64,000 nt of DNA from Cliona cf. orientalis (Eukaryota; Porifera; Demospongiae; Clionaida; Clionaidae), in the NCBI GenBank assembly GCA_963930775.1, contig OZ005697.1:4114292-4178291 (forward strand), given 5' to 3'. Below, piece by piece: positions 8,115-44,889 of the stretch (its first letter is position 1; every line of letters begins with the position of its first letter). Under the pieces are notes generated by a model. The model was given only the letters and a program-made list of their open reading frames with translations. It was not told the DNA's origin and did not search any database. The position numbers and the translations under genes were made by a program.

Positions 8115-11100
8115 TCATGTAAGTGTATCTTGTACTGAGTGTTGCCCCAGTGGATGCTTTTGGTTTACTGGATTCTCTGCTGCCTGATGATAAACATGTT
8201 CCTCAAGTTCACCATGTCGTTCATTGGCCTGAAGAACCTCCCGAAACGTTTGAAGATCAGTGATCCTAGTCCGTTGCTGATCGATATCAAGGCTCAGTGA
8301 GAGTGATAGACTTGCAAAGTCCTATAGCAGAGGTATACATCAATTGCTGTCCTGCAAAATTTAATTAAATTCTACCTGAATAAGTGATTCAGAAGAGGAG
8401 TGTGGGGGTTGACTGTATGTATACATCAGGTTAAATTCCTTCAGTTCCTGGTCAGCCACTTCCTGCGCTGTTCTGCCATACTGTGTGTATGTGGTATCAG
8501 ATTGAATGGTCATGATAGTATCTTTCTAGCCAATAGCTACGGCAAATAAATTGTGAGTAGAAGTCACTTACTTTATCCTTGATGCTGGCATCAGCACCAT
8601 GTGTCAATAGTAAATCTAAAATCTTGATATTATTGTTCAGGAGTGCAAAGAAAATAGGAGTCCATCCTATTCCAGGTTCCTGTGTGCAAATCAAATTAAA
8701 TGTAAGTCATAGTTATTCACAATGATAATATCCCAGGCCTGGGGTGTAGATAACTTTTGGTATAATGGGGGCACCTTGGGTTGCCACGCTTATTGTGACC
8801 ATGCCTACGCATAACCACATGGCAATGCAACTGAGAAAATCACTTATTAGAATTCCTGTACCTGAACACTCTGGCATTAAGAATAAGTGGTATTATACAT
8901 TAATTTACTCACACTTGGGATCCCTAAATTTGAACTGAAATGCTATGGATGACAATAAGTGACCAAAGTATGTAAGCAGTATTTTTACCAAGTGAGATAA
9001 TGGTACAATTTCAGTCACAGATACAATTGCAAAAAAGGTTTTACTGTTAACTTATCACCATCCACATCTCAATGTCTCATTCTCTATTAGCTGCTACTCC
9101 TCCCACCTTCATTTTCAAGTTGACTTGTGCACCATAGGTAATCAAAAGCTCAACCATGTGATCCAATTCAAGGTACACTGCACTGTGTATGGGGGCAACT
9201 CCATTCTGTGTAACGATAATAATGGTGAGCATGAGCCTCACATGTAATAATATTTACTTGTGATACACTATTATTATTAAAAATGCAGGGGCATGCATCC
9301 TCTGTCAGCTCGGGATGTGCATGTAAAGTTTACGACCACATGACAAAGAGGTCACACTGCGAGCTAGCTATAGGATATGTAGTTACATGCGAACAATTGT
9401 GTGAGATAGTTAGCCCTAAAATTTTGGTACTGTGATAGATTATCTACCTTGTCAAAAGAATCTATTGGTGCACCATTCTCCAGTAGCACTCGGGCAACTT
9501 CAACATGATTCTGTAGGACTGCTCTACGGAGAGGTGAGATTCCCTCCTGTATATGAGGTATATGCAATCATATTGAGTCATTACATCATGCAGTTTATCT
9601 GTATAATTTATATACATCATCTCTTTGGTCAGTGTGTGCTCCACTTGAAAGCAGTAATTGCACCATATCAGTTTTGCCATGGTAGGATGCTATACTGAGG
9701 GCAGTTTGCCCAATCTGCATGACCACAATAAGAAATATCTATAAGCTTAAGAGTGAACTGACAGAGCCTTCAGAAACAAATTTTGGATTCTCAAATTGTA
9801 CATAACTGCACTCTATAGCGATTATGACACACAGATGATAATTAAATCAATAGCTACATGTGAGAATTGAAGCAAGACGTGAGGTTGTAGTTATGCTTAC
9901 TTTGCCCTTAGCATCCACTTTGGCACCATTCTTGATAAGAATCTCTGCCACTTGGACTTGCCCGTCCTGACTTGCGAAATGGAGGGCAGTCCAGCCTTCC
10001 TGATAAAATTAATATTATTAATGAAATGTTCATCATCACGGTTTTCAGGTAGCATAATATTATGCAACATCACCCTTCTATAATCAGGCACAATGCCAGA
10101 CTGAGTACCTTATTCTGGACCTCACTGTTAGCACCATTCTTTAAAAGTAAGTCAACAATATCAGTATTCCCCCTGGCACTTGCGTGCATGAGACAGGTAG
10201 AGCCATTCTGTGTATTGTGGAGTGCCATGAAAAGTTAGTAACAATAATAACCTTAGGCTAGTACTCTAGAACACATAATAATTATTCCTATATAATATTA
10301 TCAAGCACTGTGCACATGTCGATTGAATGCATATCTCATAGCTATAAATTAAAGCAAATAGATTATCATGCACTTTCAACTGTGTGCTCTTATTATGGAG
10401 AAATGAGTATATTAGGTGGCATGGCATAACCAATCAAGAAGCGTATTATATAAGCCATGATTGTAATTAGCGGGACAGGCCATGGCCACTAACCAAGATA
10501 CAATGTAATATACACGTATTTATGTCTAGCTATAGAGATTTTGTGGGCGATCGACGTCCAATCACTTTATCCCTGGCACATGCGCATGGGGTAAAGCGCA
10601 GAGAAAATTCCGCGATGGGATCAGACTACACATCAGGTGCTGTAATCCAACTACCTTATCTTTGATATTGACATTAGCACGACACTGTATGAGCATCTCT
10701 GCCACCACTATGTGTCCTCTTGCGATAGCTGCTCCAAGTGGCGAGAACCCCTCCTGTATATGTACATATCCCATGCACACAATTCAAATGACTAGCTATA
10801 TAAACTGCACAAAAACATACGCTGTCCTGCAGATCAATCTGGGCTCCATGTTCTGTAAGCAAGTTAACTAGTTCAGCATTGCCACAGAAACAAGAATGCC
10901 AAAGAGCAGTGTGGCCAGTCTGTAGATAAAATTAACACACCTTCAGTAATGCAATCATGATACAAGACTAGTAGCACTTAATCCCGGTTCACAATACAAC
11001 ACTACATAATGCGTTGCATTGCCACTGTGTTGATCGATGCTTGTGGCACAATGCTAGGATAGACTCGGATCCTATCCTTGCGTTCCTATGCATTGCGTTC

Positions 11101-14100
11101 TTGTATAAGATCGTTAAAATATTTGAAATGTTTGCGTTGCAATGCAAGACCTTGTGTTGTATTATGAACCGGCCTTTACTTTGTCCTGTATGTCCAGTTG
11201 TGAACCAAATTTAAGGAGAATCTCTGCCACATTAACATGCCCCTGCCAGCAAGCTATATGTAGTGGTGGTAATCCATTCTATAAAATGAGATACCTCATA
11301 CTTTCTGATTCATATCAACAAGAAACATTATTCAGCATCATAATTATGTAGTTTAGATGTGAAATTATATTATACCGTATATATATATAGCGGATAACTT
11401 TTGGTGAGCATTAATTGGCGAAATAGCTCTCCATTGGTATTAATTAATTGGTGAAGTTTAAATTTGATGATCTGAATTCTTATATACTGCCATAGGCGCG
11501 CATGCGTTTAGTTGAACTGGTTAGCTTTTAAGTTGGTGATCTTTACCAAATTCGCCAAAATCGCCAAATTAAAACCTCACCAATGTTTCCCACTATACAA
11601 TACTACATGCAGGTCTCCATGAACCACTAGCTAGGATGGATGCATGCATTCATGCAGCAATGCACATAGTTCTAGCCACCATTCCTATGGAACAATTAGA
11701 ACTGAGGTTATCTGTACGATAGCTGGTGTTTTATGATTGTTGCACATGCACACATTCAAAGCTCATCTTACAATAATGCATGTTTATACTTACTTTATTT
11801 TGTGAGTTGATGTCAACCTGGTGTTGAAGGAGGGCTTTTATAAGTGCTATGTTACCAAACTTGCACGCCAACCAAAGGGGAGTCACACCATCCTGTAGTT
11901 AAATGGGTCATACTATATAAAGGGAAATGTCCAAGTTTTATGGAAGGCTAATTTGAATTTCAGCACGTTGAATGAATCAGGAAGGAGATAATTAATTAAT
12001 TAAACTTGCTATTCAGGGCTATTCTATGATTAGAGCAAGGAGTATGGTACAAACTCTTGCAATCGGCATCATAGATACTGAACAGCTAGTGATAAAATAA
12101 TATAATAGTGATGATCCCATAGCAAGCTAATCTGCTGCACATGAGTATTATTAATCCTTGGTGCATGCATGCACGAGGGTTACGGTAGTTGTTCTATGTG
12201 TCTATTATTATGCTAACTACTACATACCTTATTTGTGAGTCCAAAGTGTGGTTTTATAAGGTGCAGCATGCTATACTGGCTCCATGCTGGAATGGCTCGC
12301 GAGAATTTAGAAAAAATTCGACAAGTGAAAAAGAAAGTATAAAGCGAGATTTGAACCCGCTACATTCTGTTCCACACACAAGAGCCCCAACCACCACACC
12401 ACCGCTGTTGCCGCTGCTGCCAATCATTATTCCCCCCTATGATAGACAAACCCTAGATACTGTCACGTGACATGAGTCTGTGACCAAATGGAGGAAGCAC
12501 TTGAGCAAATAGCTCAGATAACTAGTCGTCAATCATTTTTGGGAGTGCTAAAACTTCTTTAGCCTCAGAACTTATAATAAAGAGAAAGTTTCACGTGATC
12601 CAGCACTTGTTGGCCAAATGTACATGTACATTCTGGTCATAATCACGTTTCATTTGCATTTATTCTAAGAATAATGGGTAACTTTCTCTTGAATAATGGG
12701 GTAGATAAGTTGAAGAATAATTATTTGAATAATGGCAAATTTAAAAGAATATTTGGCCCAGGCCTACTCCACGGAAACAAGCCACTCCATAGAAACAATT
12801 TCAACTTTGACGGTGACAAGATAAAGAATATCATCCTACTTGAATTTGCTGACTGAGCGAGGTTAGCTGTTGACTCTGAGTAGCCTAGCTAGCTAGCTAC
12901 GAGTGTAACAGTTTTGAACAGTTATCTGTCTGTACTACTATATTATTATAGCATTTAATAGTCCAGCATCAGTTTGGTCAACAGTAGTGACGTATGTCCT
13001 TTCAGTTTCTCGATTGAGAGAAGCGTGGTACATACACTGTACGAATTAGCTAGCTAGTTCTTGCATGTGGCAGGTGTGAATTAAATGATTGCTACATTGT
13101 GTCCTGTGTGGTATCCATTAGTGCACATAATTATTATGCTTCCTGTGCCTATGTAAACCGAGTCTGTAGTGTGGCCTGTTGGTGTGTATGCAGCTATATA
13201 GCTGGCTGCATTCTTAAATGGATTCCCTCATTATACTTCATATTCCTGACCGTTACCTCAGTGTCAAGTTCATAGTACTAGTATAATATATACACATGTA
13301 CCCTAAAGGAATTAATATCACACTATACATAAGGGAGTTATAATATTGCACACTAGCAGTGTGATATTAAGAATAACTGTTCTAAACTAGAGCTCTGTAG
13401 AGCACATACCCTGCGCACCCTGTAGCCACTGTAGCGTAGTATTGCATGCAGAGCTCGAGGTGTTTTATGACTTGATGATCCTTTCCAAGACTGAGCTTGA
13501 GCATGTACAGTTGCATCAGCACATGCCAATAGAGTGGGTTTGGTTGATAAGCCACAGGCATACTGAACAGAAAATGCACGATTTGTAGCACTAGTGAGCC
13601 GTTTTGAGCAATTCGAAACACGTATATACAAGCTCACTGATCACGCGAGATCTTGCAATTTTTGTGCCGACAATGACAATGACGATGACGACAGACATAC
13701 AAACCGATTGCTTTACCCCTTGTGCATACGCGCAGGGTAAAAAGGATATATATACTGGTCTATACGTTAAAAACAAGTTGCTGTTAGACTTCATATAGCA
13801 TTTTCAAGAGGTATATTGTAATAATGCAAATGCGATCCCGACCTGATCGCGATACGCCAGTACGTATGCCGCCACGATCACTGGACAGTACGGATGGAAG
13901 GGGCTGGATTGTGTAGGTTTTATCTATAAAATATTTGAAATAACAGCTGTCAGTAGCGACAACGGTGGTGGCTGAGTGCTTCGGCTCTTGTGTGTGGAAT
14001 GGTATGGAGCAGGTTCAACTCTTGCTGTACACTTTTTTCCCTGTCGAATTTTTGGCAGTTTGCATTGACGTTGTAACATGCATTGTGTGGATTTGTTGAA

Positions 14101-17100
14101 AACGCTTAGGTTCTGGCTGCTGACCACCACTGCTTCTTGGCGAGTTTTCGATAGAGAGCTGTCTGATATGCGATCACTTTTAAATTATTTTAAGAAGACT
14201 GGTATGTAGGTTTAGTGATAATTTGACTGACTCATCACTAGTCACTGTGGGCTATCAACTACTCTTCTTCTAGATCTGCTGATCTGGCATGCACATGGTA
14301 CTACGTATACGCAATTAATGCCGTGCAATCAGTATTAGCATATAGATGATATAGTATAGACGTACTACAGTGGAACCCCTCTAAAACGGACACCATTGGG
14401 ACCAACGATTGTGTCCGCTACAGCAAGGGTGTCCATAGCTCAGGGGTTAGTGGTTGACCATGCCCCTCCCATAATTGTGGCCAACTATGATAAAGCACGG
14501 CTCTGGACAACAAAAAAGAATGTATTGATGAGAGTTCTGTCAACTGACAGCTTATAGGCAAGAATTGGAGGCATTTAGGCTTTACTGTAGCTACTACCGT
14601 AGGTGCTTACCATGCTGCTGGTGGTGGTGGTGTTAAAGAGTTCAGTGTGCTACATGTTCAAGAACTTGAAAAGAAGGTTTTTTTTACTCTTCACGGTGGT
14701 CAGCCTTTTTTACGTACTGAGTTTGGTCCATCTTCCACGGTGCTTACTCCCATCGCCAAATGAACTAGGTCCCGATTGAAGATGTAGCCCATGCTAGAAT
14801 ATTATTACTCTTAAGTAATTATTACATACTATATTTTACATTTGCACCTCAAGTGGTGTGTGAAAAATACTAATAAATAAATAAATAGCAAGCGTCTGGG
14901 TTATATCCATCTTCCCAGCAACACCTCAGAGCTCGATGACTACATGTGTACACCAATGAATAGGCAGGGATTTCTTTGTAAAGACTGCATCGATGGCTTT
15001 GGGCCTTCCATCACTTCAGTTGGATACATGTGTTCCAACTGCACTGACGTTTGGTACGGCGTACCACTTTATGTACTGGCGGGAAACTTTCGAGGGAGAA
15101 AACTTTCACGAATTTCGTGATTTTTCAGCCATATATACGCGAAAGTTTTCTTCACGAAATTCTGGGCATGCCACACCCATTATGCGACCAGTTTCAAACA
15201 TTCCGCAAAAGTTTTCTCCGCGAAATGCACCTTTCCTACCGATCCACGAAAGTTTTCTCCCTCGAAAATTTCCCGCTATACGGTAGTCGCTGAAACTGAT
15301 CGATTTTTTATGGAACTCTTTGTTATGCGAGGTTATTCACTATTGCACAGGTTCAAACGGGACCAAAGTAAGTGTCCATTATACGGAATAGCGGGGTGTC
15401 CGCTGTTGAGGGGGTTCGAATATATTGAAGTCTATGGAAATACAATCCAGACATTCAGAATTGTCCGTTATATCGCAGGTGTCGGCCATTGAGGGGTGTC
15501 CGTTAAGCGGGGTTCCACTGTATATCATCTATGGCATTAGTGCATTCTTGTGATTACTCTCTACAACACTGCTAACAGTAACTTCTCCATCAGCCTCCAT
15601 GGCTTAGCTTGCAAATTTGCACACGCAACCGATAGATTACTGCTAGCTATAGCTAACAGTGCCTTTATAGTATGTCACTACAATTTCTTAGTATTTTAAT
15701 ACAATAAATCTCACAGCGCTAAGGGTTTGGCACCAATGGCTAACACTAGTCTTAATTTATATTATACAGGACTTAGTATTGCCATCTATTTGCACATGTG
15801 GTATATAGTATAGGTGCATGGCAGTGTATGAGGTCTGTGTACTTGTTTACTGCCCAGCTTTTATAGGCAAATTGCTGGCTATCAGAGGACTCGAGATGGA
15901 TGATCATAGGGTATACTCCAATGATGTTAACATAATAATTATTATGGGTTGATAAAAATATTCACTGGGGTACATTTGACCAAAGATCTTAAGCTAGCCA
16001 AATAAAATTAATATTGCACTGCTTTTTGTACACACCTCATTTCGGAGGTCTGGTAGGGCACCATAACGAATCAATAACTCTGCAACTTCAGTACTTCCAG
16101 TCTCACCAACAATGTGCATTGGGGTGCAACCATGCTATAAATTTAATAATAAAGTAAAAACAGCATTATATTGAAATTTTGTTTATATTGCTTACAGTGT
16201 CTTTCACATTGACTGACGCTCGATGCTCAAGAAGATATTTAATAGCATCAACTTTGCCACTGTATGTTGCAAATCCAAGAGCAGTTCCACCATTCTATAG
16301 AATTATTCAGAATTGCCCACTAGGACAACTTAGTATCACAATTATAAATAAGACTCATCTACATGTATCAGTGTTCCTAGTTCTAAGTTAATAGTAAATA
16401 AGTGGAGAGGGGGCAGAAGATATCCCCCTCTTAGAAATGGACTGGAGGAGCAACCATGCACCCAGAATGCCTGCAAGCTCGTTTAGCAGGTGGTCTAACA
16501 AACCCACAAGTTGTACCTGCAGCCAAGTGGGTTTCCCTGGGGCTGTCCTACAGTGGCCACTATAGGCAGGCTAATTTGTACTAGTGTAAACGCCATCATG
16601 TGGGACCTGGCTAACTGGCTGGTATACGCAATAGGCAGGTGCCATGGCCGTCTTATCCAGGCTGCATTCCATAGTGAATGCATTGTGGCTGTTTGGGACC
16701 TACAGGATGTGGCTGTATTAAGGAGGTGACTGCCTTATCCAGGTGACCGCTAAGGCAGGTTCCAAGGTTCCACTGTATAATGCTAGGATTTTTCATCTTT
16801 AGGGTTGATCATGATAATACAAACACCTGCTACAAAATAATCGTATACTCTCCTACATAGTTGTGTGCATAGTACCATTATTTACTTAACTTACGTGAGC
16901 TTTTACTTCAATCTTTGCCCCATGCTTCAATAACATGTCAAGAAGCTTGACAGAGCCAACCATACTCGCAAAGTGTAGAGGTGTCAACTGTGACTGAAAT
17001 TTGACCATGCCATGTTTTTCAATATCCAATGGATATCACAAGTAGTTCCTACAGCAATAGATTCACTACCTTGTTATGTTTGTTTACAGAAGCATGGTGG

Positions 17101-19666
17101 TCAAGTAGCACACTGGCAATTTCAGTATACCCATTGTAGCATGCAAACATCAAAGCAGTATTGCCAAGGTCATCCTGAAAATCAGCAAATTTAGTATATG
17201 ATAACAAAGACATTTAATGTCACTATAACATTCATGTCTTACATGTATGTCAACGTTGACGCCACGACTTAGAAGAGTTGAGATCTCATTGCAATTAGAA
17301 CAACCTTCAGTGCAGATTTTAAGCAAGCACTTTTCGTGTTCAATCTACAAAAAGTAGAGTATAGTGAAATGAGGTCAATTAAGTTTTGGATCCAGACCAG
17401 TGCCTAATACGAGCTTATCATAGAGTCGGTAGACTCTATAAGTAGGGATGGCCCGGATATGCCATATATGCAATACATTACAAATACCCAAATAATTTCT
17501 AAGTGTGAAAATCAGAATCTCCAGCAAATTGTGCATCTAACAAGAACAAGATCATTCATCAAAACAATTGTACACGTCAGAACCAGATGTTCAAAAAAAT
17601 AGGCCATTTCTCATTCTTTTCTTTCTCATTTCCAGGGCTAACTTAAGACTGTCTGGACCTCTCACCTTAGTTCTCATATAAATCTATTCTATTTTGTGCA
17701 GTGGCACGCTAGTTTGGTGTTATCTCGACAGTTACGTAATAGTGGGTGTGTACGGCGCATTATCGAATGGGTGTGTCTGATACGCCATTTTTGTGATATA
17801 ATGCACATGCTCGGAATGTGTTGCCATGGTGAAGTCATGTGACAGCACCTGGCCCTAGGCGCGCGCCTAGGCGAGCAAGCTCAGATGATTGCTGAGCTCG
17901 TACATCGCTAGCGCGTGCAATGGCGCGCTGGACCGATCATGGATATGAAGGTTCAAGGCTCGAGGAGCGGTAAGGCGCTAGGCATAGACGAGCTACTCGC
18001 TAGCACTTACAGTGCTAGTGCTACACTGGATCGATCATAGATGTCATACCTGATACGAAGGCACAAGGCTCGAGCTGCGGTATTAAATGTACAGATCATA
18101 AAATAATGCCGGGTAGCTAGCTGCTGCCAACAGTAGAACTTAGAACTAGGTTTTCTTCCTAAAAGGAAAAGTCTCATCACTACTTGGGCCGCCTAAAGCA
18201 GCCTTCTTTGTAAGATGGCATAGATCAGTGGCATTCCCAGGATTTGAGGGAGGGGGGTGCTAAGACATTCGCGCGCAAAATATTTAACCACGCCCCAAAA
18301 GTTGACCACACCCCTAATTACACGCGTTTTTGAAGGTAGCTGGCTGACAAAGAAGGGTGTTTTAGGCCAAATAACGACGAGAAACTGCTGTTTTGGGAGC
18401 GAATTTTAGAGGCCAGTAAGTTTATTGTTGGCGGTAGCTTCCAGTCAACGATTATCAATAACGATATTTGTCAATGAGCTACTGAGCTGGCTGTTGTGCC
18501 AGAGCTGATGGGGGTGCTCTAGCACCCTGAGCACCCCCCTGGGTACGCCACTATAGATAAATTACAATAAAAAAGAATAGAAACAAGTATAAAAACAATT
18601 GAAGAATGAAGTAGGGATGGCAGGATCAAAATGTACACAAACAAGAGATAATCGCATCTACTATACATCCCTACGCTTGCTTTTTGAGGGGTGCAAAAAT
18701 AGCCAGTAATAATGCGATTGAATCAAACTGATAAACCCGAACCATCGTGACAACTAGGGAACAATCTGCACGAATATCTCCCACATACCACACTCAACAA
18801 ACACGTCAACCATGATTAATAGGTGCACAATAGTCGAGAAAAGCAAGCATAGGGATGTATAGTAGATGCGATTATCTCTTGTTTGTGTACTTTTTGATCC
18901 TGCCATCTTTACTTCATTCTTCTTTTTATACTTGTTATAATAGAACCTACCATGACATCTTCATCATAGATTGTACGATCGCCGATGGTCACAATCACTA
19001 TTTGGTGTCGTCTGAAAAACGGAATGGCGTTCACTGCATTTGAGGCAATTGTGTCTGCATCCTGGGGAGACACGAGCCAAGTGACTATCAAACTTCCTTC
19101 GATCAGTTGATCAATCACTGCCGTCAATGAAGGAAGATCAAACTCCTCACTAAATGCATTCCATAGCTCACTAATGTATGATAACGACACCTCAGACAGC
19201 TTTCTGTTGAGTTTGAGTTTCACCTTTAGTTTCTGATAGTGTACAGTAGTGTATTTTTCCATCGTTGCTGCACTGCTGCTCTTCATTTGAGCTTCACACT
19301 TTTGAGGTTGTACATGCTTTATGTAGTCGATAATCTTTGTCGTTGCAAAGAAACCGGATAGATAGCCCTTGTAGTTACTCACAGCATCTCTGACTGAATC
19401 ACATTTTGGTAGAAAATGTTGAATAATCTTCTCGAGTGGACCATAGTGTTGGTAATCCCAGAGTCTTGTGACTGTTACTCTGTCAAACATCTTCACAAGG
19501 TCTGGTGAATCAGTGAGAAAGTCATCCCTCTGGAAGAAACCAACAAGAAATTGGCGTAGATTCAAAACGCTGACATCGCTGCTTTCCAATGCTTGACGAA
19601 CTATAACCAACAAAGATGAGAATCGACCTTGAATCTCTTCCATGTTGGAGCGGAGCAATTCCTGAC
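8115..19666 (-). CDS. Ankyrin-repeat protein 1 with conserved N-terminal domain
   Basis: Exons, 5' to 3' on the minus strand: 19666-18951, 17344-17243, 17174-17070, 16993-16895, 16294-16196, 16134-16036, 11892-11794, 11278-11180, 10919-10821, 10753-10655, 10207-10109, 9999-9901, 9714-9616, 9546-9448, 9205-9107, 8679-8572, 8480-8376, 8321-8115 (TGA). Every junction is GT-AG and phase 0 after the first exon. The first exon (238 codons) is a conserved domain with LWDYQHYGPLEKII, LPSLTAVID and a GSLIVTW core, shared with the paralogue at 44788. The next 15 exons each encode one ankyrin repeat (for example EGWTALHFAS..., NGLPPLHIAC...), twelve of them exactly 99 bp. The last two exons give a hydrophilic tail with no recognised domain. 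The 19666 exon starts in phase 1, so at least one more 5' exon exists; the Death-domain exon at 25757 is the likely start. A scaffold or adaptor role is inference. Confidence 0.85.
11373..11605. mobile_element. TACCGTA-type MITE in an ankyrin-gene intron
   Basis: The left tip TACCGTATATATATATAGCG and the interior AATTGGCGAAATAGC / GATTTTGGCGAATTTGG are inverted repeats, closing near ACTATACAATA at the right. About 230 bp, non-coding, eroded on the right side. Confidence 0.6.
12290..12455 (-). mobile_element. tRNA-derived SINE, copy 1
   Basis: On the minus strand: an A-box-like GGTGGTGTGGTGGTTGGGGC (about 12386-12405), then a B box GGGTTCAAATCTC (about 12346-12358), then a short unique stretch ending near TTTTTCACTTGTCGAA. 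A second copy with the same layout is at 27180-27335. The spacing between boxes fits a tRNA-derived promoter. The 3' body is short and there is no long A tail. Confidence 0.7.
13600..13745. repeat. Dispersed repeat family C, copy 2 (partial)
   Basis: Holds the family C end: GATCTTGCAATTTTTGTG, a GACAATGACAATGACGATGACG tract, then the palindrome TTTACCCCTTGTGCATACGCGCAGGGTAAA. It lies in the large ankyrin-gene intron 11893-16035. The small open frames on both strands here are repeat shadows. Confidence 0.65.
14890..15072 (+). pseudogene. Captured fragment of Cys-rich multi-span family gene
   Basis: An open 61-codon stretch inside the TIR element at 14368-15520. It reads LPSNTSELDDYMCTPMNRQG, then FLCKDCIDGFGPS and a final CSNCTDVWYGVPLY. 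This aligns residue for residue with LPNNITELNSYMCGPLNREE...LCSKCKNGYGPP in the gene at 32060-33975, including the cysteine spacing. It stops exactly where the nested MITE begins. There is no start codon or splice site, so it is a relic or captured segment and not an expressed gene. Confidence 0.75.
15074..15285. mobile_element. Palindromic MITE nested in the larger TIR element
   Basis: Left GGCGGGAAACTTTCGAGGGA, right CCCTCGAAAATTTCCCGC, then TATACGGTA. The interior has further inverted repeats (GAAAGTTTTCTTCACG / CACGAAAGTTTTC). It interrupts the captured gene fragment immediately 5' of it. Confidence 0.7.
16549..16777. mobile_element. CAGTGG-tipped MITE (mariner-like)
   Basis: The left end TACAGTGGCCACTATAGGCAGG and the right end CTAAGGCAGG...GGTTCCACTGTA are imperfect inverted repeats with TA at the borders. 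It lies in an ankyrin-gene intron, with TTATCCAGGYTGC-type internal repeats. It has no coding capacity. Confidence 0.55.
17415..18120. repeat. ~700-bp dispersed repeat, copy 1
   Basis: An inverted copy lies at about 51850-52590. Shared landmarks, in order: ATAGAGTCGGTAGACTCTAT, AGGGATGGCCCGGATAT, TTTCTTTCTCATTTCCAGGG, CTCACCTTAGTTCTCATATA, GGGTGTGTCTGATACGCCAT and TTGCCATGGTGAAGTCATGT. The left end is a short hairpin (AGAGTCGGTAGACTCT). Neither copy shows an open frame of useful length. Confidence 0.7.
18226..18553. mobile_element. hAT-like MITE, TAGAT duplication
   Basis: 328 bp. The left tip is CAGTGGCATTCCCAGG, followed by a GGGGGGTGC motif. The right tip is GCACCCCCCTGGGTACGCCACTA. It is flanked by TAGAT on both sides (18221-18225, 18554-18558), again 5 bp. 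No coding capacity. It lies between the ankyrin gene's conserved-domain exon and the first ankyrin exon. Confidence 0.75.
18582..18936. mobile_element. Long-TIR MITE (AACAAGTATAAA tips), copy 1
   Basis: 355 bp with ~90-bp inverted repeats: AACAAGTATAAAAACAATTG...GTAGGGATGGCAGGATCAAA against TTTGATCCTGCCATC...TTTATACTTGTT. The inner arms read ACAAGAGATAATCGCATCTA. It ends 14 bp outside the splice donor of the 19666-18951 exon. The same family occurs at 51316-51715, at an exon border of the kelch gene. Confidence 0.8.
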
Positions 19667-19790
19667 CTAAGAAATAATTGGTGATCATTGTTATTTTGCA
19701 CTATTATAATAGAGTCACATTGATCAATCACTGGCCAGATCCTCTTTTCCCACTTTTACATATCTGTAGCCAGTGAGACTTGTGTGTATA

Positions 19791-24939: not shown

Positions 24940-25472
24940 ATGTTCACAAGCTCCATAGCTACTGCTTTCTGGAGGGTTTCTTGGATTGTTGGTGAAATCA
25001 AATCAATTTTTTGGACACAGTACTAAGTACAGTAGCAGTCAAAAATACATAACCGTAATACATGCCCAGTACACAGGGTAGGGTCAAATACTTACATGTG
25101 CACCATGAATACACCCGTGCTAACAGCTGCTAATTGAGCTATGATTTTACCTGGTGACGCTTTATTGCAATGGGTCTATAGCTATTGGCTACTATTGGTT
25201 TGCTAGTGCCATAACTGGGGCCAGCTGTTGGACTCCGACAATAGATATGCCCAACCCATACAACCTAGCATGGTCTTTTCTTCAAGACTACTGTGCCACA
25301 CTGCCAAACTGCCCGCTATTAGCACTCGAGCCCATGCAAAGCTAAGAGTTTTACAATATCGATGAGCACTGAGGAGGTAATCTTATGGAATCCAGGATTA
25401 TTGTACCATATCTTACATACCAATTGGGTTGTCAGATTCCAATGCACTCCTGCACTTCGCGACGGTACTCAC

Positions 25473-25757
25473 GGTCATAATGAATCTCTCTCTGATGTTT
25501 GCAGCCATAGTATTCATATCAATTTTCTCCAGAGCTCCAGCCAATTTCTCCCATGTGGCCTCCACATCGCTCTGGAGCCACTTGATCACCATCATTTGCT
25601 TCTGTAACTCGGGTGCATAGTTTTGAGCAATGAATTCGAGGAGCTCTGGCTTGAGTCCAAGATACAAGCCCAGTCCTTGCCAGTTGACCACTGCTTTGAT
25701 GGCCAGGGTCACATCTGCTTCTGGAAGGGTGTCTACCTGCAATTTTTCCGCCATCAT
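25473..25757 (-). CDS. Death-domain first exon, probably of ankyrin protein 1
   Basis: Opens with ATGATGGCGGAA (start 25757, or 25754) and ends at a GTGAGT donor after 95 codons in phase 0. The product has the six-helix Death-domain pattern: IKAVVNWQGLGLYLGL near residue 20, then LLEFIAQ, KQMMVIKWLQ and ATWEKLAGALEKIDM, with the conserved helix-2 and helix-5 tryptophans. Death domains mediate homotypic contacts in cytoplasmic signalling complexes. The nearest 3' exon on this strand is the conserved-domain exon at 19666, which needs phase 1. A short linker exon that changes phase 0 to 1 must therefore lie in the repeat-filled 5.8-kb intron; I could not find it. Alternatively this is a separate small Death-domain gene. 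Confidence 0.75.
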
Positions 25758-26496
25758 AATATAGATCTTACAATAATATGACCAAGCGTAGATCTATATA
25801 CTGAGGATGAAGTGATAGCGCTTCAAAACCACAATTATTATGACGTCGTCTCGCCGACTAATTAGATCACTACGCATGCGCAGTGTGGTTCGCGCGTTAG
25901 TTCGAGTTTCAGATCTGCATTGGTAAAATTGTCTGCCCTGAACCACCCACTATCTTTCTATTAAAATTGGCTACAATGTCAATGTGTGGTATCCATGGTA
26001 GATTGGCTGATAGCACAACTCCCAGGTCCAATACTCTCCCAAGTTGTTGACCATAGAGGTGCAATATACATATCTGGTTCCCGCCGTCTCATAAATTTAT
26101 AGTTATAGAACTCAAGTGGAGATCGTCTTCAGTAATTAGCTATCCTATGTTTCAATCCCTAGCTTGTTAGACATTGTTGAAATCTTGTGGGTAGTTGATC
26201 ACTCTGTATACGATCTATAGCATGTAATCTGCATCGAGAGTATTAATGCACGTGATTCTATCTCAGGCATGCAGTGGAGTGGAAATCATACTATAGACCC
26301 AGCCCCCGTGTATGTAGATGAGTAATTAGCTATTAAAAATAGAACAATTACTTAGTCTTATGTTATTCATTAGATAATTTATATCCATAAGTAGCTACAG
26401 TAGGAGAGGCATATCGCTGGATATGAGGAGTATTGCAAAAGTGTGATCATCTATAATACGTAAAATCATCATTAATTTTAATAATAGACAATCACG

Positions 26497-28813
26497 CTAA
26501 CGACAATCGTTGATATACTCCAGCCTGTTTCTCCTTACTAATTCTTCCTCCATGCAGTCCATTATTGTGTGATCTCTCTCTGTAAAGTACTTATTGTGGA
26601 ATATTGGCCAAGAGAGATTCACTTTACTTTTCACAGTGTGGAGGTCGCCACTCGTCAAGATGCAGATACCATGAACACTGTAGCCATGTTTGCAGAACTT
26701 GTATGGTTTCCCTATTTCTGCCGGTCCTCTTATCCAAGTAACCTTAGATATCTCTGGGGGAGGGGAGCTTATATTAGCATTGTATCCTCCAGGCACGCCT
26801 GCATAATTATATTATAATTATTATGGAATAATAAATTTTACTAGCTTATCAGAGGAGATTGGTCATAGATTCTAATTGTTTGCCACAGCAAAAATAATAT
26901 AGTGCATAATAATTATTATTATGGTGTGCGATAATTTAATGTGCATTCTGTAAAAATTGTGACCAACTTCTCGCTACACTGGACAAACTGTATGTACACG
27001 AGACTGTGGCCACAATGATTGGATAAGTACACAATGTCATGTAATTGTATCATTTAGCACACTGTGTAAACAATGGTCTTGCTGTCTCTACATTGGTTTG
27101 AACAAGCCATTTATCCTTATTTGTGACTGACCATGTAATGAGAGTGGATCTCGTTATGTACAGATATCCTACGAGAACTTAAATTTCAACAAGTGAAAAG
27201 AAAAAAAATAAGCATAAAGCAAGATTTGAACCCATTCTGTTCCACACACAACAGCCCCAACCACTACACCACCGCTATTGTCGCTGCTGCCAATCACTAT
27301 TTCCCCCCTTTCATAGACAAACCCTAGAGACTAACCCTGCTAACCATTGGCAACCCATCCCCAAACCCCCCAGCCCCTCCCATCCATATCGCGTATATTA
27401 ATATACATTATACACGTGCGTGATTGCGTCATAACCACGTGCCAATAATCTAATTAGGATGTCTGTACATAACGATTTCGAATGAGAGTGCTTGTTGTAG
27501 AGAACTCATCTCACATGCAATAATTGTCAGTACAATATTATTATTATATACATACCTGGAATCATATAAAGGGTGCTGTAAAAATTTTCCTCCGGCGCAA
27601 GAGCATCTTTTAAGAATCTGGACAGGGCAACTGCTACATCATCATTGAGTGTATAATTCACGAATTCTGGAGTCAGAGCAAAATATATCGTACTCTTATA
27701 GATTGTCAGATTAAATGGGATAGGACCCACGTCCACTTCAGTTTGAATTAAACTTGATGTGCCATTGTCTACAGTCCACTTCTTTTTGAATCTTACTAGT
27801 TCATACTTTCTACGTATAGGGTGAGAGTGAATAGCCGAGCTTCCTTTAAGTTGCCGTAAAAGTTGTACCATTTCCTTGTTAGTTCGAAGAGGTAGCTCTT
27901 TACCACAAAGAGAAATCACGTAACGCCATGGGTACTCGTGACGCCTCTTTAGAAGATCTCCAAAGCAGGTCATCTGAGCGTCCATCAAGGAGTGACGACC
28001 CCAATCAACTTCTCTTATAACGCTTGAAATAATGATACTGTCAAAGCAGTCGGCAAGCTTGTTGAAAAGCAGTTTCAGATCTTCTGAAGATCTGCTATCG
28101 TAGTGTATGCAGTAGATATTGTGTGGACGATAGAGTACTTTCAGCAGGCGATAAATTTGAAATGGGCTATTGTGAATGAGCAGTGCAAACGCTAGGGGAA
28201 AGTCTAACTCCTCCTTTGTAGTATAAAGATTATCCTCTAATTCATCCTTGAAATTCGTACAGGTATGATTCTTCACCAACTTGGAAAATCTCAATGCATG
28301 CTCTTTAGCTGGCCAGCTACGAGAAGCATGTCGAACTTGTAGCACTTCAAATTTATACTCATCGCTGCCTCCTTTGAAGAGTACTGTACAGTTGGCATAT
28401 ATTTCAGGTGTCACTTTGGTCACAGTACCTCTAATCCAGCTCCTGAACCCCCCAGGTGGAACTTTGCAATCAAAACCAGCTCCGCTACTTACAGATTTTT
28501 TGACATTGGAATGCTCAGTGTCCCGGTGATCCGGAGAGGATAGTTTCCATGCCGTTATGTTTTCCAACCGCTTCGTTCTTTGTAGTTTTGTCACGCTGAA
28601 TTCGGTTTCTGACTTGTTGGAGCTCTTAGGGGTTTCAGATTGCTCCGCATGAGGCACCAAATGATAAGCCTGACGACCATAGATATATATAGTATGCTCT
28701 TTGTCCACTGAAACTGGTACCGTTGGCAGCTTCGAAGTATAGATCGTGAGTGAAACTACTGTCAGCAAAGCGATCACAATAAAGAACTTGAAGCTGCGAA
28801 ACTGAAAATCCAT
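26497..28813 (-). CDS. Core-2/I-type beta-1,6-GlcNAc-transferase (GCNT-like)
   Basis: Two exons: 28813-27556 and 26798-26497, joined in phase 1 by GTATGT/AG, giving 519 residues. The product is a type II Golgi membrane protein: a short cytoplasmic tail, a signal anchor at about residues 9-25 (FFIVIALLTVVSLTIY), a Ser/Thr-rich stem to about 110, then the glycosyltransferase-14 domain. Family landmarks are FPLAFALLIHN, QIYRLLKVLYRPHNIYCIHYD, DCFDSIIIS, a WGRHSLMDAQM block, WRYVISLCGKELPLRTN, and APEENFYSTLYMIPGVPGG across the junction. The last corresponds to the SPDE motif whose Glu is, to my knowledge, the catalytic base of mouse C2GnT. Exon 2 carries RGPAEIGKPYKFCKHGYSVH, a GDLHTV motif and a CMEEEL end, as in vertebrate GCNTs. 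These enzymes branch O-glycans or poly-LacNAc; the exact acceptor cannot be told. Length and cysteines look intact. Confidence 0.92.
27180..27335 (-). mobile_element. tRNA-derived SINE, copy 2, in GCNT intron
   Basis: An A-box-like GGTGGTGTAGTGGTTGGGGC at about 27255-27274 and a B box GGGTTCAAATCTT at about 27221-27233 on the minus strand, the same orientation as the host gene. It is about 85% identical by eye to copy 1 at 12290-12455, including the flank CAACAAGTGAAAA. Confidence 0.7.
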
Positions 28814-29476
28814 ACTAAGCTACAAGCTACTAGTCGAGCCAGTATTAATTTTTACCGGCGCGTAAGGGTTAATTAAATTGGGACGAGCCTAATCAGTACT
28901 CGGAGCTACATGTAGGAGAAAACCGGTACTAGCTCACAGCGCATGCGCATAATTATCGCGCGGTAAAGATCGTCAACGTTGGCGCATGGCCGCATTTAAC
29001 TCTAAATATAGCTCACCAAAGACATGCCAGCTCGCATTCATTTTCGATCGAATAGACTGCTAGAAAACAAGAAAAGGTACCTTAAGGCATCAGTACAAGT
29101 ATCTACAGCAATAGTGAAGGCTAGGCCTTTGGCTTTAGTCTGGGTGCAACTTGGGGCCCGCGGACTTAATGTAAACACTGGGAATACTTTACATGTGATG
29201 TAAACTCCTACCATGATTAGATCGTGGCAGAAGTCATGTAAAATATCCCCATGATTAGCTAGCTAACCCAAGGGACAAAATTTAAATCTTCCCATGATAG
29301 AATCATGGCAATTTTACTACTTTTACGTAGCTACAGATCTGTATAGGACCATTATTAACCCTCGCCGCAAAGCGTGGGTGGAGGATTACTGCAATCGTTT
29401 GGCGATTTTTTTATCTGTCCATCCGTCCCAACCCTCCAGGACCTGTGTTAAAATGGTAAGGGTCATCCATGTACTG

Positions 29477-32059: not shown

Positions 32060-33975
32060 ATGAAATTTTTGAAGGTGGTGATCATAATATTATTATTACA
32101 GTTTCAGTCAGTGTCACATCATGCAATTGCCTTGTCAATGTACGCTCAATTTTCTCCAAGAGATAGTCATGTTCTGTTGAATCAAAACAGCTCTGATCAC
32201 GAGTGCCCATCAGTTTGGTTTGAGTACAATCAGGTTACACATGATTGTCAATGCATAGGTTATCTATTTGTGAATTGTGAAGGAGAAAATGTGTATGCTG
32301 ACATTCGTCACATATTGACGTATGATTCTACTAGAGGAATAATCTCTGCTGTTAAGATGAGGCATAAATACTTGGAAGGCTACAATTTGACAGTCACAAA
32401 AGATATGGATCAACTGGTATACTGCTGCCGAATAATATCACTGAACTCAATTCGTACATGTGTGGACCTCTGAATAGGGAAGAGTACTTGTGCAGTAAAT
32501 GTAAAAATGGATATGGACCACCTGTGATATCTGAGTCAGCATCATGTGCAAATGTGTGCTATTTGTGCAAAGATGCGTGGATTACGAAAGATTTATTTCT
32601 CTACCTTTCTCTCAATTTTATTCCTCTCACTCTGTTCTATCTTCTCATTCTTGTATTTCAAGTTAGGCTTACCTCTGCTCCAATGACATGCTTCATCATG
32701 TACAGTCAGCTAATGGTTTTGGGATTCTATGAAGAATGTGGCATCAAATCTGCTATTTCAGAGACTGTATTTAGTCAGATAAAGTTTATGGACAAGGGAA
32801 ATACTCTTAGAACGGGTACTAAGATTCTTCTTACCATATACGGGGTATTTAATCTTGACTTCTTTCACTACATTTTGCCTCCATTTTGCATCAGTAGCAG
32901 GTTAAGACCTATTCATGTCTTCTCTCTAGGCTACATATCAGCGTTCTACCCTTTCCTACTAATACTCCTCACATGGTTTTGCGTTGAGCTCCATGGTCGT
33001 AACTTTAGACCAATCGTGTGGCTATGGAGGCCATTTCATGAATGTTTTGTTCAACTAAGGAGAGGCTGGAACACCAAAAGTGATCTCATCGATGTCTTTG
33101 CTTCTTTCTTTCTCCTTTCCTACAGCAAAGTTGTGTATCAGATTATGTTAACTTTTGATTCTGAAGAGATAATAAGTCATTCTTTGATGGATGGCAAAAA
33201 ATCTCGTGCATATGTACTCAGTGCTGATCTTAGTACCTTGACGCTTACGAGATCTGATGGTTATATGATTTTTATGGTCTGTTTTTCGGCTCTTTTGGTT
33301 GTCTTATTCGTAGTCTTGCCGATATTTTTGCTGTGTTTTTATCCAACAAAAATCCTTCGAAATATTCTCTCAAAGTGTTTGAGCAGCAGATTACTTATTT
33401 TCCTTAACACTTTCATGGAGAAATTTCACTATAGTTACAGAGATGGATTAGATGGTACAAAAGACATGAGGAGCTTTTCAGGAATCTACTTTCTTCTCAG
33501 AATAATTATTTACTCTGCTGAGGCTTTTAGCAGAGCAACTATCAATGTGGATCCACATTTTGCTCGAGGAATTGTTTTCTCAGTTGCTGCTCTCATCATC
33601 GCTTTAAGTCGACCTTACAAAAGGAAGTACATGAATATCATGGACTGCATCTTGCTATTTCATTTGGCAACCTTCTGCTATATAATAGCATCAACTACCA
33701 GCTTAAATGACAAGCCTGCCGTTTTTCTACCAGTGATGTACGTGATGCTGGCCTTTCCCTTTATGTTCATTTTCCTGCTAGCTATTTACAGAATAACTTA
33801 TGGTGTGTTTAGAAAATGCTTCAGTCAGTGGTCACCACTGCCACAGTGTTCAGTATGTCTGAAAAGTGCAAAAGTTAAAATTGATAGCTATATACATTGT
33901 TATAACAGTTCACCCATTGCATATGTCATCACATCTAGTTTCACTATTGTCTTTGTGCATGTAATCAGAATGTAG
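32060..33975 (+). CDS. Cys-rich multi-span membrane protein (one frame break)
   Basis: Reads from ATG 32060 (signal peptide, residues ~1-24, MKFLKVVIIILLLQF) through a short extracellular part to a stop at 32473 in frame 2. The family continues in frame 1 from about 32400: LPNNITELNSYMCGPLNREE, a CxxC-rich module (LCSKCKNGYGPP, CYLCKDAW), then about 7-8 membrane spans and a stop at 33973-33975. The two frames overlap at 32368-32473, so one base has been gained or lost there. This is either an assembly error, a recent inactivating change or an unseen tiny intron. Conserved stretches include GTKILLTIYGVFNLDFFHY, LRRGWNTKSDLIDVFASFFL and KDMRSFSGIYFLLR. It is intronless or nearly so. The family is expanded here (five other pieces in the window). 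I know similar sponge proteins only as uncharacterised. A receptor or channel role would be guesswork. Confidence 0.75.
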
Positions 33976-40673: not shown

Positions 40674-43600
40674 TTATCTGCAAAACTCGCTTTGATAGGT
40701 CGACAACAAGCCATCTGCAATATCTACATGTATAGCATTCTCTGAAACGATATTGAGGAATTTAGTAAATTTTTCTGGGGCTATCTGAATTTCCTTCGTC
40801 ACTGCTTCGACCAGGATAGCAGCCTTTCCAGCTGGGGTATCGTCATTGGACATTTTGAGCTGTACATCGTGCTGAATGAAACTTGTGCTGAAAAGAACTG
40901 CAGCAATAAGGTCTGGATCACGGCTGGTCGATGGCTGCATGATGATGAACCAGCAGCTGGACCATCTCAATATTGCCTTCAAGACTGGAGGTATATAGGG
41001 GGGACTGTTCTCCCTAGAGAGAGAAAATTGTGGATTCATGTTGTCACATGAAATCTCCAAGAATGATGAAGCTATCCATGCACATGCATGTTAGCTTGAG
41101 ATGTGCTGCTCCATTGCATATTATTATCTTTATATTACTTACACATGCAGTGCTGTACCTTATTGATGTCCGCCCCATGGGCCAGGAGCAGCTCCACTAG
41201 CCTTGGGTGGTTGTTTTTAGCAGCAAAGTACATTGGTGTGAACCCATCCTGCATCAGAAATATATCCAGGGTAAGGCAAATCCAACAAACCCCTCCTACT
41301 GTATGTATACGTACTATAGTAAATTTCCCTCTCTACAAGGACACACACTGAAATAAGGACACTATCTAGGCTCCAAGCTAGATAGAGTGGTATCCAGAAC
41401 TATCCCCTAAAACAAGAGTATACTAGAACTCTGTAGAGCACATACCCTGCACACACATTACGCAATCTGTAGTGCCACTTTTGTGTGCATAGACTAAAAT
41501 TTGTGAAATTGGAAATGCTGCTTTAATATAGTTGTATGATAATATCCGAGCCAAAAATCCAATGATTCTCTCTCTGCCCCAGACCTAGAGACCTAGACTA
41601 GGAAGATATGAACTGCTATAACCTACATTTTGATGCATTCAGCTATCTTATTAATACATTCTGATTCGGTTCCACAGGGCATCACATTTCAGTCAGCGGA
41701 TAGCTACATGTAGCAGCACAGCCTAGCCAAACCAAGTCACAAGCATTTAATATTTCGACATTACTTACAAGTTCATGTTACCAGGCCACTAGGCACTGTG
41801 TTGTTAGGCGTGGCTATATGGCTAACAAAAAGACACTATTTTGTGACGCTCATGGATCGTGTCCCTCGATTCAAAGCAAACTGAAGCCAATTTTCACCAT
41901 GCCAAATTCGATTGATTCATTACGCTTACGAGTTGCTCAGGTGCCTAGATCTCGAGATATGGCAATTTTTGTGCTAACGACAACAACAACAGCAATGATG
42001 ATATGACCAATTATTTTACCCCTTGCACATGCGCGCGGGGTAATAGTATGAAGGCACCTCACTAATCATGATCAGGACATAGCTGTCCCAGGAGTGACCA
42101 CAACAGAGAGTTATGCACACAGTAAAACAGAGTCATGTTGCTCCAAATTGAGCTCACTATTTGCATATGCATCGATGCTCTATGATGGCCATGTACATAA
42201 TAATAGAGAAGCCTCCATCTTGCTCTAAACTGAGCATACCATTCTACCATGCTGACCCGATGATGGACATACAATGGTCTCACTTTACTAAAGTAGTTCA
42301 TATCAGCTCCGTGGTCGATGAGTAGAGCTGCTGGATCATAACAACCCTGGGAACAGGCACCAAACAGGGCTGTTTCTCCAAGTTCATCCTGCATGAGTTG
42401 TGGCAATGCAACAAATTGAAGCACTATAGTGCAAAATCCTCGGCGCAATAGTAATAGCAATAGCTAGTCTGCCTGTTGCAAATTTGCAAGCTAAGCCAAG
42501 CAACACTGTCACTATACAGTGTAGTTGTAATGCACTGATACCGCGTATCGATTGCATGCGATTAGGTAATATCTATTACATAATTATAATTTCATGGATG
42601 CCACAAACATTCTTGAATTACTCTGGGAGATCAGTAATCATTAAACTATTGCCCAGTTTTCTAAGCAATCATGCTGGAGCTACAAATGTGTGATCAAAGA
42701 TGACATCATAGGCATCCTACTGTCAATGACTAGCAATGACTATAGCAAGTACAAGCATCAATGTCTGTATACATGTGTTACTGTGTCTCACATCATTTGG
42801 TAGATCCACTGCAGCGTGGTGACGCAGGAGCAGTAGAACAATCTGGGTATGTCCTTTAAAGCTTGCTTTCCAAAGAATTGATGCTCCTTTCTGTAGCATG
42901 TGAAGGAGAGAGTTGAGTGAGACACTAGAGGACAGTGATTGAATGTGAGCAGTGGGAAGAGCTAGCCTGGGAGCTGAACAATGACCACTTCCTCACTATG
43001 TTTTAAACTAGCTAGTGCTGGCAAAAGTTGTCCTCACAGGAAAATCCAAAACATAGTACATACAAATTCACCAGTTATCATTGGAAACCTATAATCACCT
43101 TATTTCTGTAGTTCACATCTGCCCCATTCTTCACTAAAATCTCAGCAATATGGAGATGGCCATTGTTCACCGCTGTCACCAAAGCCGTTTCCCTGAATTC
43201 ATCCTGTACAAGACAATGAAAGACAGTAGCTAATTCTGCTATAGTAATTTTTCCATAAAATATAATAATGTACCTCACCTTTGTTGCCATGTCAATATCG
43301 GCATGATACTCAAGAAACAACTCAACGAGGTCTTGCCTCCCATGATAGCTGACATACCAGAGGGGATGGTTGCCACGCTAACATACAGAACAAGACGTCA
43401 ACACAGATACTTGTCTATTGCCATGCAGTGGCACCTACTTGGTCATAGATATCAGGATCTACTCCCTGAGCTAGGAGAGATGAGAAATCTCTGATATCTG
43501 CAGTTTCATCAACACAGAGCTCCAAAAATGTCTCCTCTTTAGCAGCCTGGGATATAGAAAATGGACAAGCCATGCATATGTTTTTAATAGTTAGTGAAAA

Positions 43601-44788
43601 TTTTAATAATTATCTACCTATAAATGCTGATACAATTATCCCAAAACCTAGTTTTCTTCCTTGAAATTTCTTTGTACTTAGGTCATGCCTACTTAATGTC
43701 ATGCTTCTTGGACATGCAGATGGGAGGTCGAGGCTCAGATAGGGTTGGTCAGTAGGCAAAAAAGTAAAAAACAAACAAACAATGAATCTCATTAGAAAGT
43801 CATGGATATCAATAAGATTCACCGTGCGCTGTGCTTGCTTCATCAAGACTAGACCAGGACACACAGGGTACTAAGCTTTGGCAAAATATGACAATCCTTC
43901 ACTGTTTGGGGGAAGCTCTTTTTTGCTGACACCAGATACTTGCACTGCTATTAGTCAAATTGAACACTGCTGTGGGAGTGGTCTAGTCGCTCAATCGAGC
44001 ATGCATTGTGGTCACATGATTGTGGCTTTTATTTTGGAAATCTCCAAAAATACTGTCAGTGGATCCAAGAAACATGAAATTAAATTGATGTAGCCTCACC
44101 ATTTGTTTCTCATCATAGATGATGACATCATCAATCGAGACAAGGACTATCCCATGGCTTCGGAAGAACTTTGACCTTGGAAGGATGGTGTCGGCGATAT
44201 GTTGTGGCACTCTCCATGTTACCTCCAGGCTGCCCACTACTATCCTATCAATGACTGCCGTCAGAGAGGGAATCTCGTACTCCTCAGCAAAAGACTGCCA
44301 CAGCTTCACAACATAGTCTAATGAAACCTGCGATATCTTTCGCTCAAGTTGAAGCACCACCTTGATCTTCTTGAAATGTTTTGGTCTGAGCTTTGCAGAC
44401 GGTTGATCACATTTCCCATCAGAATCATCAGCGGACAAATTCTGGTACTCGATATAATCAATAAGCTTTGTTGTGAGGTAGAATCCAGAGAGACAGGCCT
44501 TATATGCTTTCATAAGGTTCCCCACTTCTTGATCACTCGATAGAAACTTGTTGATCAGTTGCTCCAAAGGGCTGAAATGATGATAATCCCACAAATCATT
44601 GAGGGTGATAGTAGTAAATAATTTCTCCAAATTGAACGTCTCAGGAAAATTGCACTTAAAGAAGGTGATTAGAAAGTGCCTCACTCTCCTGATATCACTC
44701 TGGGATTGGAGAGCTGATTGGACTTCGACCACAAGAGTGGAAAAAAGCGCTTTTATTTCGTCCACATTGGAACGAATCATCTCCATAC
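40674..44788 (-). CDS. Ankyrin-repeat protein 2, paralogue of protein 1
   Basis: Exons 5' to 3': 44788-44100, 43546-43439, 43377-43279, 43203-43099, 42890-42792, 42388-42284, 41248-41159, then 41013-40674. The first (229 codons, phase 1 acceptor) is the same conserved domain as in protein 1: LWDYHHFSPLEQLI, IPSLTAVIDR, a GSLEVTW core and FFRSHGIVLVSIDD. Seven ankyrin exons follow, phase 0, 90-108 bp (for example DEFRETALVTAV..., DGFTPMYFAA...). The last exon starts a repeat (GEQSPLYTSSLEGNIEM) and would hit TGA at 40920. Removing a 34-bp GTGATC...TTTTCAG stretch (40921-40888) restores the frame into a helical segment (KAAILVEAVTKEIQ, PEKFTKFLNIVSE) resembling a CARD/death-fold, ending at TAA 40676-40674. 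Fewer repeats than protein 1. An upstream linker exon is at 47671-47609; no Death-domain exon was found. Confidence 0.8.
41760..42045. repeat. Dispersed repeat family C, copy 3
   Basis: Contains CAAGTCACAAGCATTTAATATTTCGACAT, AATTTTCACCATGCCAAATT, AGATCTCGAGATATGGCAAT, an ACGACAACAACAACAGC tract and the palindrome TTTACCCCTTGCACATGCGC...GGGGTAA at 42013-42042. It lies in an intron of ankyrin gene 2. Confidence 0.65.
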
Positions 44789-44889
44789 CTGCACAGTTGT
44801 AACATTACATTATGTATTAAACACATACAGTATACTGAAAAATTCAGCACACAAACTAGTCTAAGAGCTCTCTCGAACATAAACCCTCG

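Follow-up and report, generated by a model that had tools for sequence, protein, structure and literature searches.

What is the block of ~238 residues that two ankyrin genes share in a 64,000-nucleotide stretch of DNA from the sponge Cliona cf. orientalis (contig OZ005697.1, positions 4,114,292 to 4,178,291; the whole stretch is called the window below)? The initial annotation had read this block as one conserved domain without a name, lying between a Death domain and ankyrin repeats. We find two modules instead, the second of which is assigned to TRADD-N by profile comparison and a conserved turn. With a probability of roughly 0.75, we conclude that the exon encoding the block (the core exon of gene 1 and of gene 2) forms the constant core of an immune or cell-death adaptor of the TRADD-N type known from sponges. 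This core would consist of a helical module, probably of death-effector domain (DED) fold, followed by TRADD-N. It would be preceded by a Death domain in gene 1 and followed by ankyrins.

Both core exons code on the minus strand, to which the initial annotation has to be corrected, its exon coordinates being right (Table 1). The plus-strand translations of both exons are rich in stops, and the minus-strand open frames (18909-19700 in gene 1 and 43983-44804 in gene 2) both contain the shared sequence blocks that had been quoted. The resemblance, estimated by eye at 35-40% identity, is real and slightly higher when measured: in one pairwise BLASTP comparison, 103 of 240 residues are identical (43%, E 1e-63). 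It is not due to chance, since a search of the whole genome (216.8 Mb) with the gene 1 core exon returned 107 matches, down to E 2.4e-4. Most of these (93/107) have no internal stop and 14 have stops; a few of the 107 rows are pieces of a single copy. The matches are clustered on C9 and C10, with others scattered elsewhere, and a second query, the divergent copy in L027, likewise gave 107 matches at mostly the same places. We collected 44 copies, two from the window and 42 from fetched loci, and aligned 42 of them (alignment A2); the two omitted have a stop within the match. The LWxY block is nearly invariant, with Leu-Trp in 42/42 copies and Tyr in 41/42. Pfam SWIB is matched by 2/42 of the aligned copies (best E 3e-4).

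The ratio of nonsynonymous to synonymous substitution rates (dN/dS) among 13 gene-2-like core exons has a mean of 0.25 over 78 pairs, with means of 0.32 for the N-terminal half and 0.16 for the TRADD-N half, and the gene 2 exon compared with 12 close copies gives 0.22-0.36. The core exon of the gene-2-like group is thus under purifying selection.

The C-terminal half of the core exon (~95 residues in gene 1) is very likely a divergent domain of the TRADD-N superfamily, because profile-profile comparison relates it to known members and because it carries the signature turn. The Pfam family TRADD-like_N (PF20694) has 46 matches in the genome at E <= 1, 24 of them above the cut-off, none of which coincides with the 107 core-exon places. 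From 21 fetched loci we aligned 14 PF20694-type proteins (alignment A4, with near-duplicates and short ones omitted), all of which match PF20694 at E <= 1 by way of their selection. Comparison of A2 (42 copies) with A4 (14) by hhalign gave 97.9% (E 6e-13) over 198 columns, covering the whole exon, and the C-terminal half alone matched its A4 counterpart at 95.0% (E 4e-8). Controls against an alignment of 13 Death frames gave 0.1, 0.2 and 0.1%, and one half against the other half gave 0.3%. A hidden Markov model (HMM) of A4 was also run over 3218 open frames (40 amino acids or more) from the window and the loci L009-L048. All 44 core exons were among the top 46 frames, the 47th having an E of 2.1; the remaining two (L026:8621-9439 and L042:1057-1500) look like extra members.

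A tiny residue followed by Ser (or Cys) in the β2-β3 turn is described as a mark of TRADD-N by Kaur et al. (2021, eLife, PMC8195603). This turn reads Gly-Ser in 40, Gly-Cys in one and Lys-Cys in one of the 42 A2 copies (GS/GC in 41/42), and the 14 A4 copies have Gly-Ser in eight and Gly-Cys in six. In an AlphaFold2 (AF2) model computed with A2, the C-terminal half follows the order strand-helix-strand-helix-helix-strand-strand, an RRM/ferredoxin-like, two-layer α+β arrangement with moderate support.

The N-terminal half (~118 residues) shares, judging from hhalign (95.7%, E 9.5e-9), a common origin with the helical half of the PF20694-type proteins, the part that carries their CSFFNY motif. 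The whole-exon AF2 model with A2 shows a five-helix bundle at residues 2-118, with scores of 84-96 in 9/12 ten-residue blocks and of 71, 70 and 55 in the others, joined to the C-terminal half by a linker (residues 119-141) scoring below 50. Modelled alone with 56 sequences, the first 120 residues reached a predicted local distance difference test (pLDDT) of 93.1 and a predicted template modelling score (pTM) of 0.85. The fold of this half is probably DED-like: in Foldseek, the tDED of caspase-8, the vFLIP MC159 and the DED of PEA-15 superpose on the model with a root-mean-square deviation (rmsd) of 3.3-4.5 Å over 85-91 columns, and they are the only matches below 9 Å among the best 50 listed. 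A search of BFVD added one further low-rmsd match, which is nameless. Pairs of DED and TRADD-N have been reported from several animals (PMC8195603).

The arrangement around the core was followed through 22 copies in 10-kb loci with home-made HMMs, which were built partly from those same loci. A Death or Death-like frame lies upstream in 18/22 and an ankyrin match downstream in 19/22, so that here, as in gene 1, TRADD-N occurs as a single copy between two globular domains. The upstream room was mostly ~4.5 kb and the Death exon of gene 1 lies farther off, hence 18/22 is a lower bound. Pfam Death is matched above its cut-off in gene 1, L022, L026 (two frames), L027 and L016:8020-8559. The clearest sign that Death and core belong to one protein is L026:4307-5437, where both lie in a single open frame of 377 residues (Pfam Death 1.1e-13).

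In gene 1, the Death exon (Pfam Death 4.3e-7, 30.4 bits against a cut-off of 22.6) is located 5.7 kb upstream of the core exon. On our reading of the sequence, its candidate donor agrees in phase with the acceptor (phase 1) at the core exon, and L009, L010 and L011 show the same fit of donor and acceptor phase. The ankyrin repeats were delimited with a home-made HMM seeded with eight of gene 1's own repeats, and Pfam Ank is above its cut-off on both pieces of the array tested. We infer that the Death, core and ankyrin parts of gene 1 are spliced into one protein. The position that the initial annotation had given to the block, between Death and ankyrins, is thereby borne out in gene 1 and, as regards an upstream Death or Death-like frame, in 18/22 relatives; the Death domain it had placed at one end was found in gene 1 and not, within the window, in gene 2.

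Table 1. Positions, within the window, of the features of the two ankyrin genes.
Feature	Positions	Strand	Basis
Gene 1 core exon: helical, probably DED-like half and TRADD-N half	18951..19666	-	Open frame, BLASTP, genome copies, alignment, AF2
Gene 1 N-terminal half: five-helix, probably death-effector-like, with LWDY-H-x-PLE block	19311..19664	-	AF2, Foldseek, hhalign
Gene 1 TRADD-N domain, divergent (very likely)	18951..19238	-	hhalign; RRM/ACT-like elements
Gly-Ser of the TRADD-N uS motif, β2-β3 turn	19092..19097	-	Alignment A2
Gene 1 Death exon (Pfam match ~25488-25688; candidate GT donor, phase 1, at 25420)	25416..25793	-	Pfam Death
Gene 1 ankyrin repeats, 14 matches, one partial	8575..17168	-	Home-made HMM; Pfam Ank
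Gene 2 core exon: probably DED-like half (44439-44786) and TRADD-N (44100-44390)	44100..44788	-	Open frame, BLASTP, alignment, dN/dS
Gene 2 ankyrin repeats, 6 matches	40927..43374	-	Home-made ankyrin HMM
CARD-like piece adjoining gene 2 on its 3' side, in a frame different from ankyrin repeat 6	40677..40943	-	Genome matches, identity to L075

Several results weigh against the adaptor reading. For the N-terminal half, the DED matches are weak (Foldseek E 1.8 to 4.1) and hhalign against five sponge DEDs of the same genome gave 1.9%. Pfam DED has no match in the 42 copies, and no Foldseek match reaches E <= 0.001 in PDB or BFVD. These results favour the alternative that this half is a separate, unnamed five-helix adaptor, not a death fold, which travels with TRADD-N in sponges; the bundle has five helices and not six, the first and last being 27 and 30 residues long, and its profile is unlike the Death alignment as well. 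The three DED superpositions, unrivalled in rmsd among the listed matches, and the DED-TRADD-N pairs of other animals (PMC8195603) speak for a DED-like fold, and we regard the separate adaptor as the less likely of the two, although a serious alternative. A C-type lectin met with the N-half profile (E 0.00085) was rejected as chance, no stretch passing alone.

Further points of this kind concern the architecture. No Death frame was found upstream, within about 4.5 kb, in 4/22 copies, and several upstream frames are only Death-like (17.1 bits in L015 and 22.2 bits in L017:9562-9900, where the Pfam cut-off is 22.6). Gene 2 has no Death exon in the window, as searched with two home-made Death HMMs and by tblastn with the exons of relatives. 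In L015, a relative with 86% DNA identity to gene 2 in the core exon, a Death-like exon (E 0.006) is present; it has no match within the window. The ankyrins of gene 2 are constrained, with dN/dS of 0.25-0.45 against five relatives with similar repeats (L015, L016, L017, L019 and L023). The sixth relative, L014, is not counted (dN/dS 0.24 at dS 1.1, three repeats having low-identity best matches). The array is therefore not fast-evolving in the gene-2-like subgroup, where core and array are both constrained, and hypervariable ankyrins find no support in this group. The one piece of the gene 2 array tested scores 18.8 bits with Pfam Ank, below the cut-off of 21.1.

At its 3' end, gene 2 is abutted by a CARD-like piece, which agrees with the death-fold-like end that the initial annotation had seen there: it shares 38% identity with L075, a copy on C19, over 85 residues. 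Its open frame overlaps ankyrin repeat 6 without being in frame with it, so that its join to the gene is only a candidate. A genome search with its last 61 residues gives 58 matches, counting the piece itself, of which 47 are on C14, a sequence that also holds many NACHT genes. At C19:2760016-2760180 and C3:4926054-4926221, the CARD-like match precedes a NACHT with which it agrees in strand and open-frame length, so that the two would, by these measures, lie in one open frame. Pfam CARD gives 2.4e-4 and 21.5 bits for L075 and 16.7 bits for L076, both below the cut-off of 23.9, and has no match in the gene 2 piece itself. No NACHT lies in the window among the at least 104 matches listed (103/490 candidates scored). 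The nearest pair of core exon and NACHT noticed, with the lists compared by eye, is ~19 kb apart on C6, and we rejected the idea that NACHT accompanies the core exon. Genome-wide, with 150 Death matches scored of 1292 candidates, 86 DED matches at E <= 1 and these NACHT matches, the host has a large death-fold and NLR repertoire; so many Death, NACHT and TRADD-type genes would suit a sponge.

The missing Death exon, the frame of the CARD-like piece and the stops within 14/107 genomic matches could also mean that the family is expanding and that its copies in the window, especially gene 2, are in decay or have been rearranged and yield no complete protein. We hold this to be rather unlikely: in gene 2, stops interrupt neither the core exon nor the repeats, and comparison with relatives shows purifying selection on both; gene 1 has all its parts with a candidate splice phase that fits. 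It is quite improbable, in our estimate, that the five helices make up a new adaptor fold travelling with TRADD-N and that some members, such as gene 2, have swapped Death for a CARD-like tail shared with NACHT proteins; were it so, ankyrin-TRADD-N proteins would plug directly into NLR-type receptors.

The assignment of the C-terminal half has its own opposing evidence. The Pfam TRADD models match 0/42 copies directly at E <= 1, PF13820 has no match in the genome (its control likewise matched nowhere), and the gene 1 exon is among the weaker matches of the A4 HMM (E 0.0012). The model is moderate, with ten-residue block means of 48-92, and strand β2 is absent from it, residues 185-189 scoring below 50. 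Foldseek returned no match at E <= 0.001 for this half (0/718) and no TRADD structure among the best 50 of 718; the nearest folds, ACT, BMC and the MAD28 domain of cadherin-23, are ferredoxin-like without significant E. ACT-type domains are themselves named as relatives of TRADD-N (PMC8195603). That this half is another RRM/ferredoxin-like domain, for example an ACT-type ligand-binding domain merely resembling TRADD-N, would suit these fold matches and the silence of Pfam and is very unlikely, given that the PF20694-type match covers both halves with identical module order and GS/GC turn. An unrelated enzyme or an ACT ligand-binding domain was rejected after sequence, Pfam and fold searches. 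Matches to the lectin BP39L, found in PDB, span 27-32 residues (E 0.0041 and 7.8e-6) and were set aside as chance, no stretch passing alone, and the PF20694-type profile matched nothing in PDB below E 0.06. Searches for prokaryotic and viral relatives, each on one short peptide pattern, gave 20 and 18 stretches, none of which was confirmed.

Among known systems, vertebrate TRADD differs from gene 1 in the C-terminal position of its Death domain and is not known to have ankyrins. It is alike in being an adaptor that pairs TRADD-N with a Death domain (PMC8195603). The closest parallel is the expansion in another sponge, Amphimedon queenslandica, for which Kaur et al. report 357 TRADD-N proteins. 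In most of their architectures, one to three Death-like domains are followed by TRADD-N and then by a variable C-terminus, most often of ankyrins or SH3-LRR, with a kinase among the fusions. The window genes share with the NCOA6-clade expansion of Amphimedon a Death-like domain (in gene 1) before and ankyrins after TRADD-N, a GS-type turn and a very large lineage-specific expansion, and depart from it in gene 2, which has no Death found and abuts the CARD-like piece. The DED-TRADD-N proteins of cnidarians, bivalves and amphioxus, compared by their described architecture (PMC8195603), similarly have DED directly before TRADD-N, a variable C-terminus and, in some, ankyrins, whereas gene 1 has an extra N-terminal Death domain.

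Within the same genome, the PF20694 proteins (L049-L069) likewise have a helical half followed by TRADD-N, with CSFFNY-x-[IL]E where the core exons have LWxYxHxPLE. Ankyrins lie downstream by Pfam in L049 and by eye in others, and an upstream Death-like exon is seen by eye, that of L049 having no Pfam match at E <= 0.01. Pfam recognises these proteins and none of the core-exon family. In L062:295-1899 (C5:10.50 Mb), the TRADD-N half runs in-frame into a region that looks kinase-like by eye.

Because the Amphimedon expansion described in PMC8195603 has such an architecture, gene 1 and gene 2 appear to represent a divergent branch of an already described class; what is less familiar in them is the helical module and, beside gene 2, the CARD-like piece. 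The initial annotation had suspected an innate-immunity or cell-death scaffold not yet characterised. Its context is likely right, and the class and its sponge expansion had been published in 2021 (PMC8195603). A study of sponge NLRs (PMC12909245) contains neither TRADD nor ankyrin in its main text.

The TRADD-N class is thought to connect the sensing of invaders with cell death, and a switch model has been proposed for it (PMC8195603). By analogy, the ankyrin array may be what binds a partner or ligand. Placed where the constant part meets the variable one, TRADD-N may keep its neighbours inactive and, following that model, may be switched through the surface around the Gly-Ser turn, upon which the Death and DED-like domains would recruit other death-fold proteins and set off defence or cell death. 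If it is joined to gene 2, the CARD-like piece would recruit death-fold proteins too. Taken as a whole, this mechanism is tentative, and we would put it slightly short of even odds. That the family is instead a scaffold outside immunity, serving the cytoskeleton or transcription as giant ankyrins or NCOA6 do, seems improbable: although NCOA6, a transcription coactivator, has a TRADD-N as well (PMC8195603) and ankyrins are generic binders, the roughly one hundred copies in the genome include clusters, Death or Death-like frames accompany most of the copies examined, and gene 2 has its CARD-like piece in common with NACHT proteins.

Elsewhere in the window, open frames at 26500-28819 on the minus strand, just upstream of the gene 1 Death exon, look by eye like a putative glycosyltransferase gene. 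Long open frames at 32368-33975 and 36233-37093 lie on the opposite (plus) strand between the two ankyrin genes.

A conserved block that had no name now carries one, and its two modules have boundaries that make them separately testable. The branch of about a hundred copies to which it belongs escapes the Pfam TRADD models, all 46 PF20694 matches lying elsewhere, and Pfam-based counts would miss it, since none of the 42 aligned copies is matched. Through the CARD-like piece, a TRADD-N/ankyrin gene of an early animal may be physically linked to NACHT receptors.

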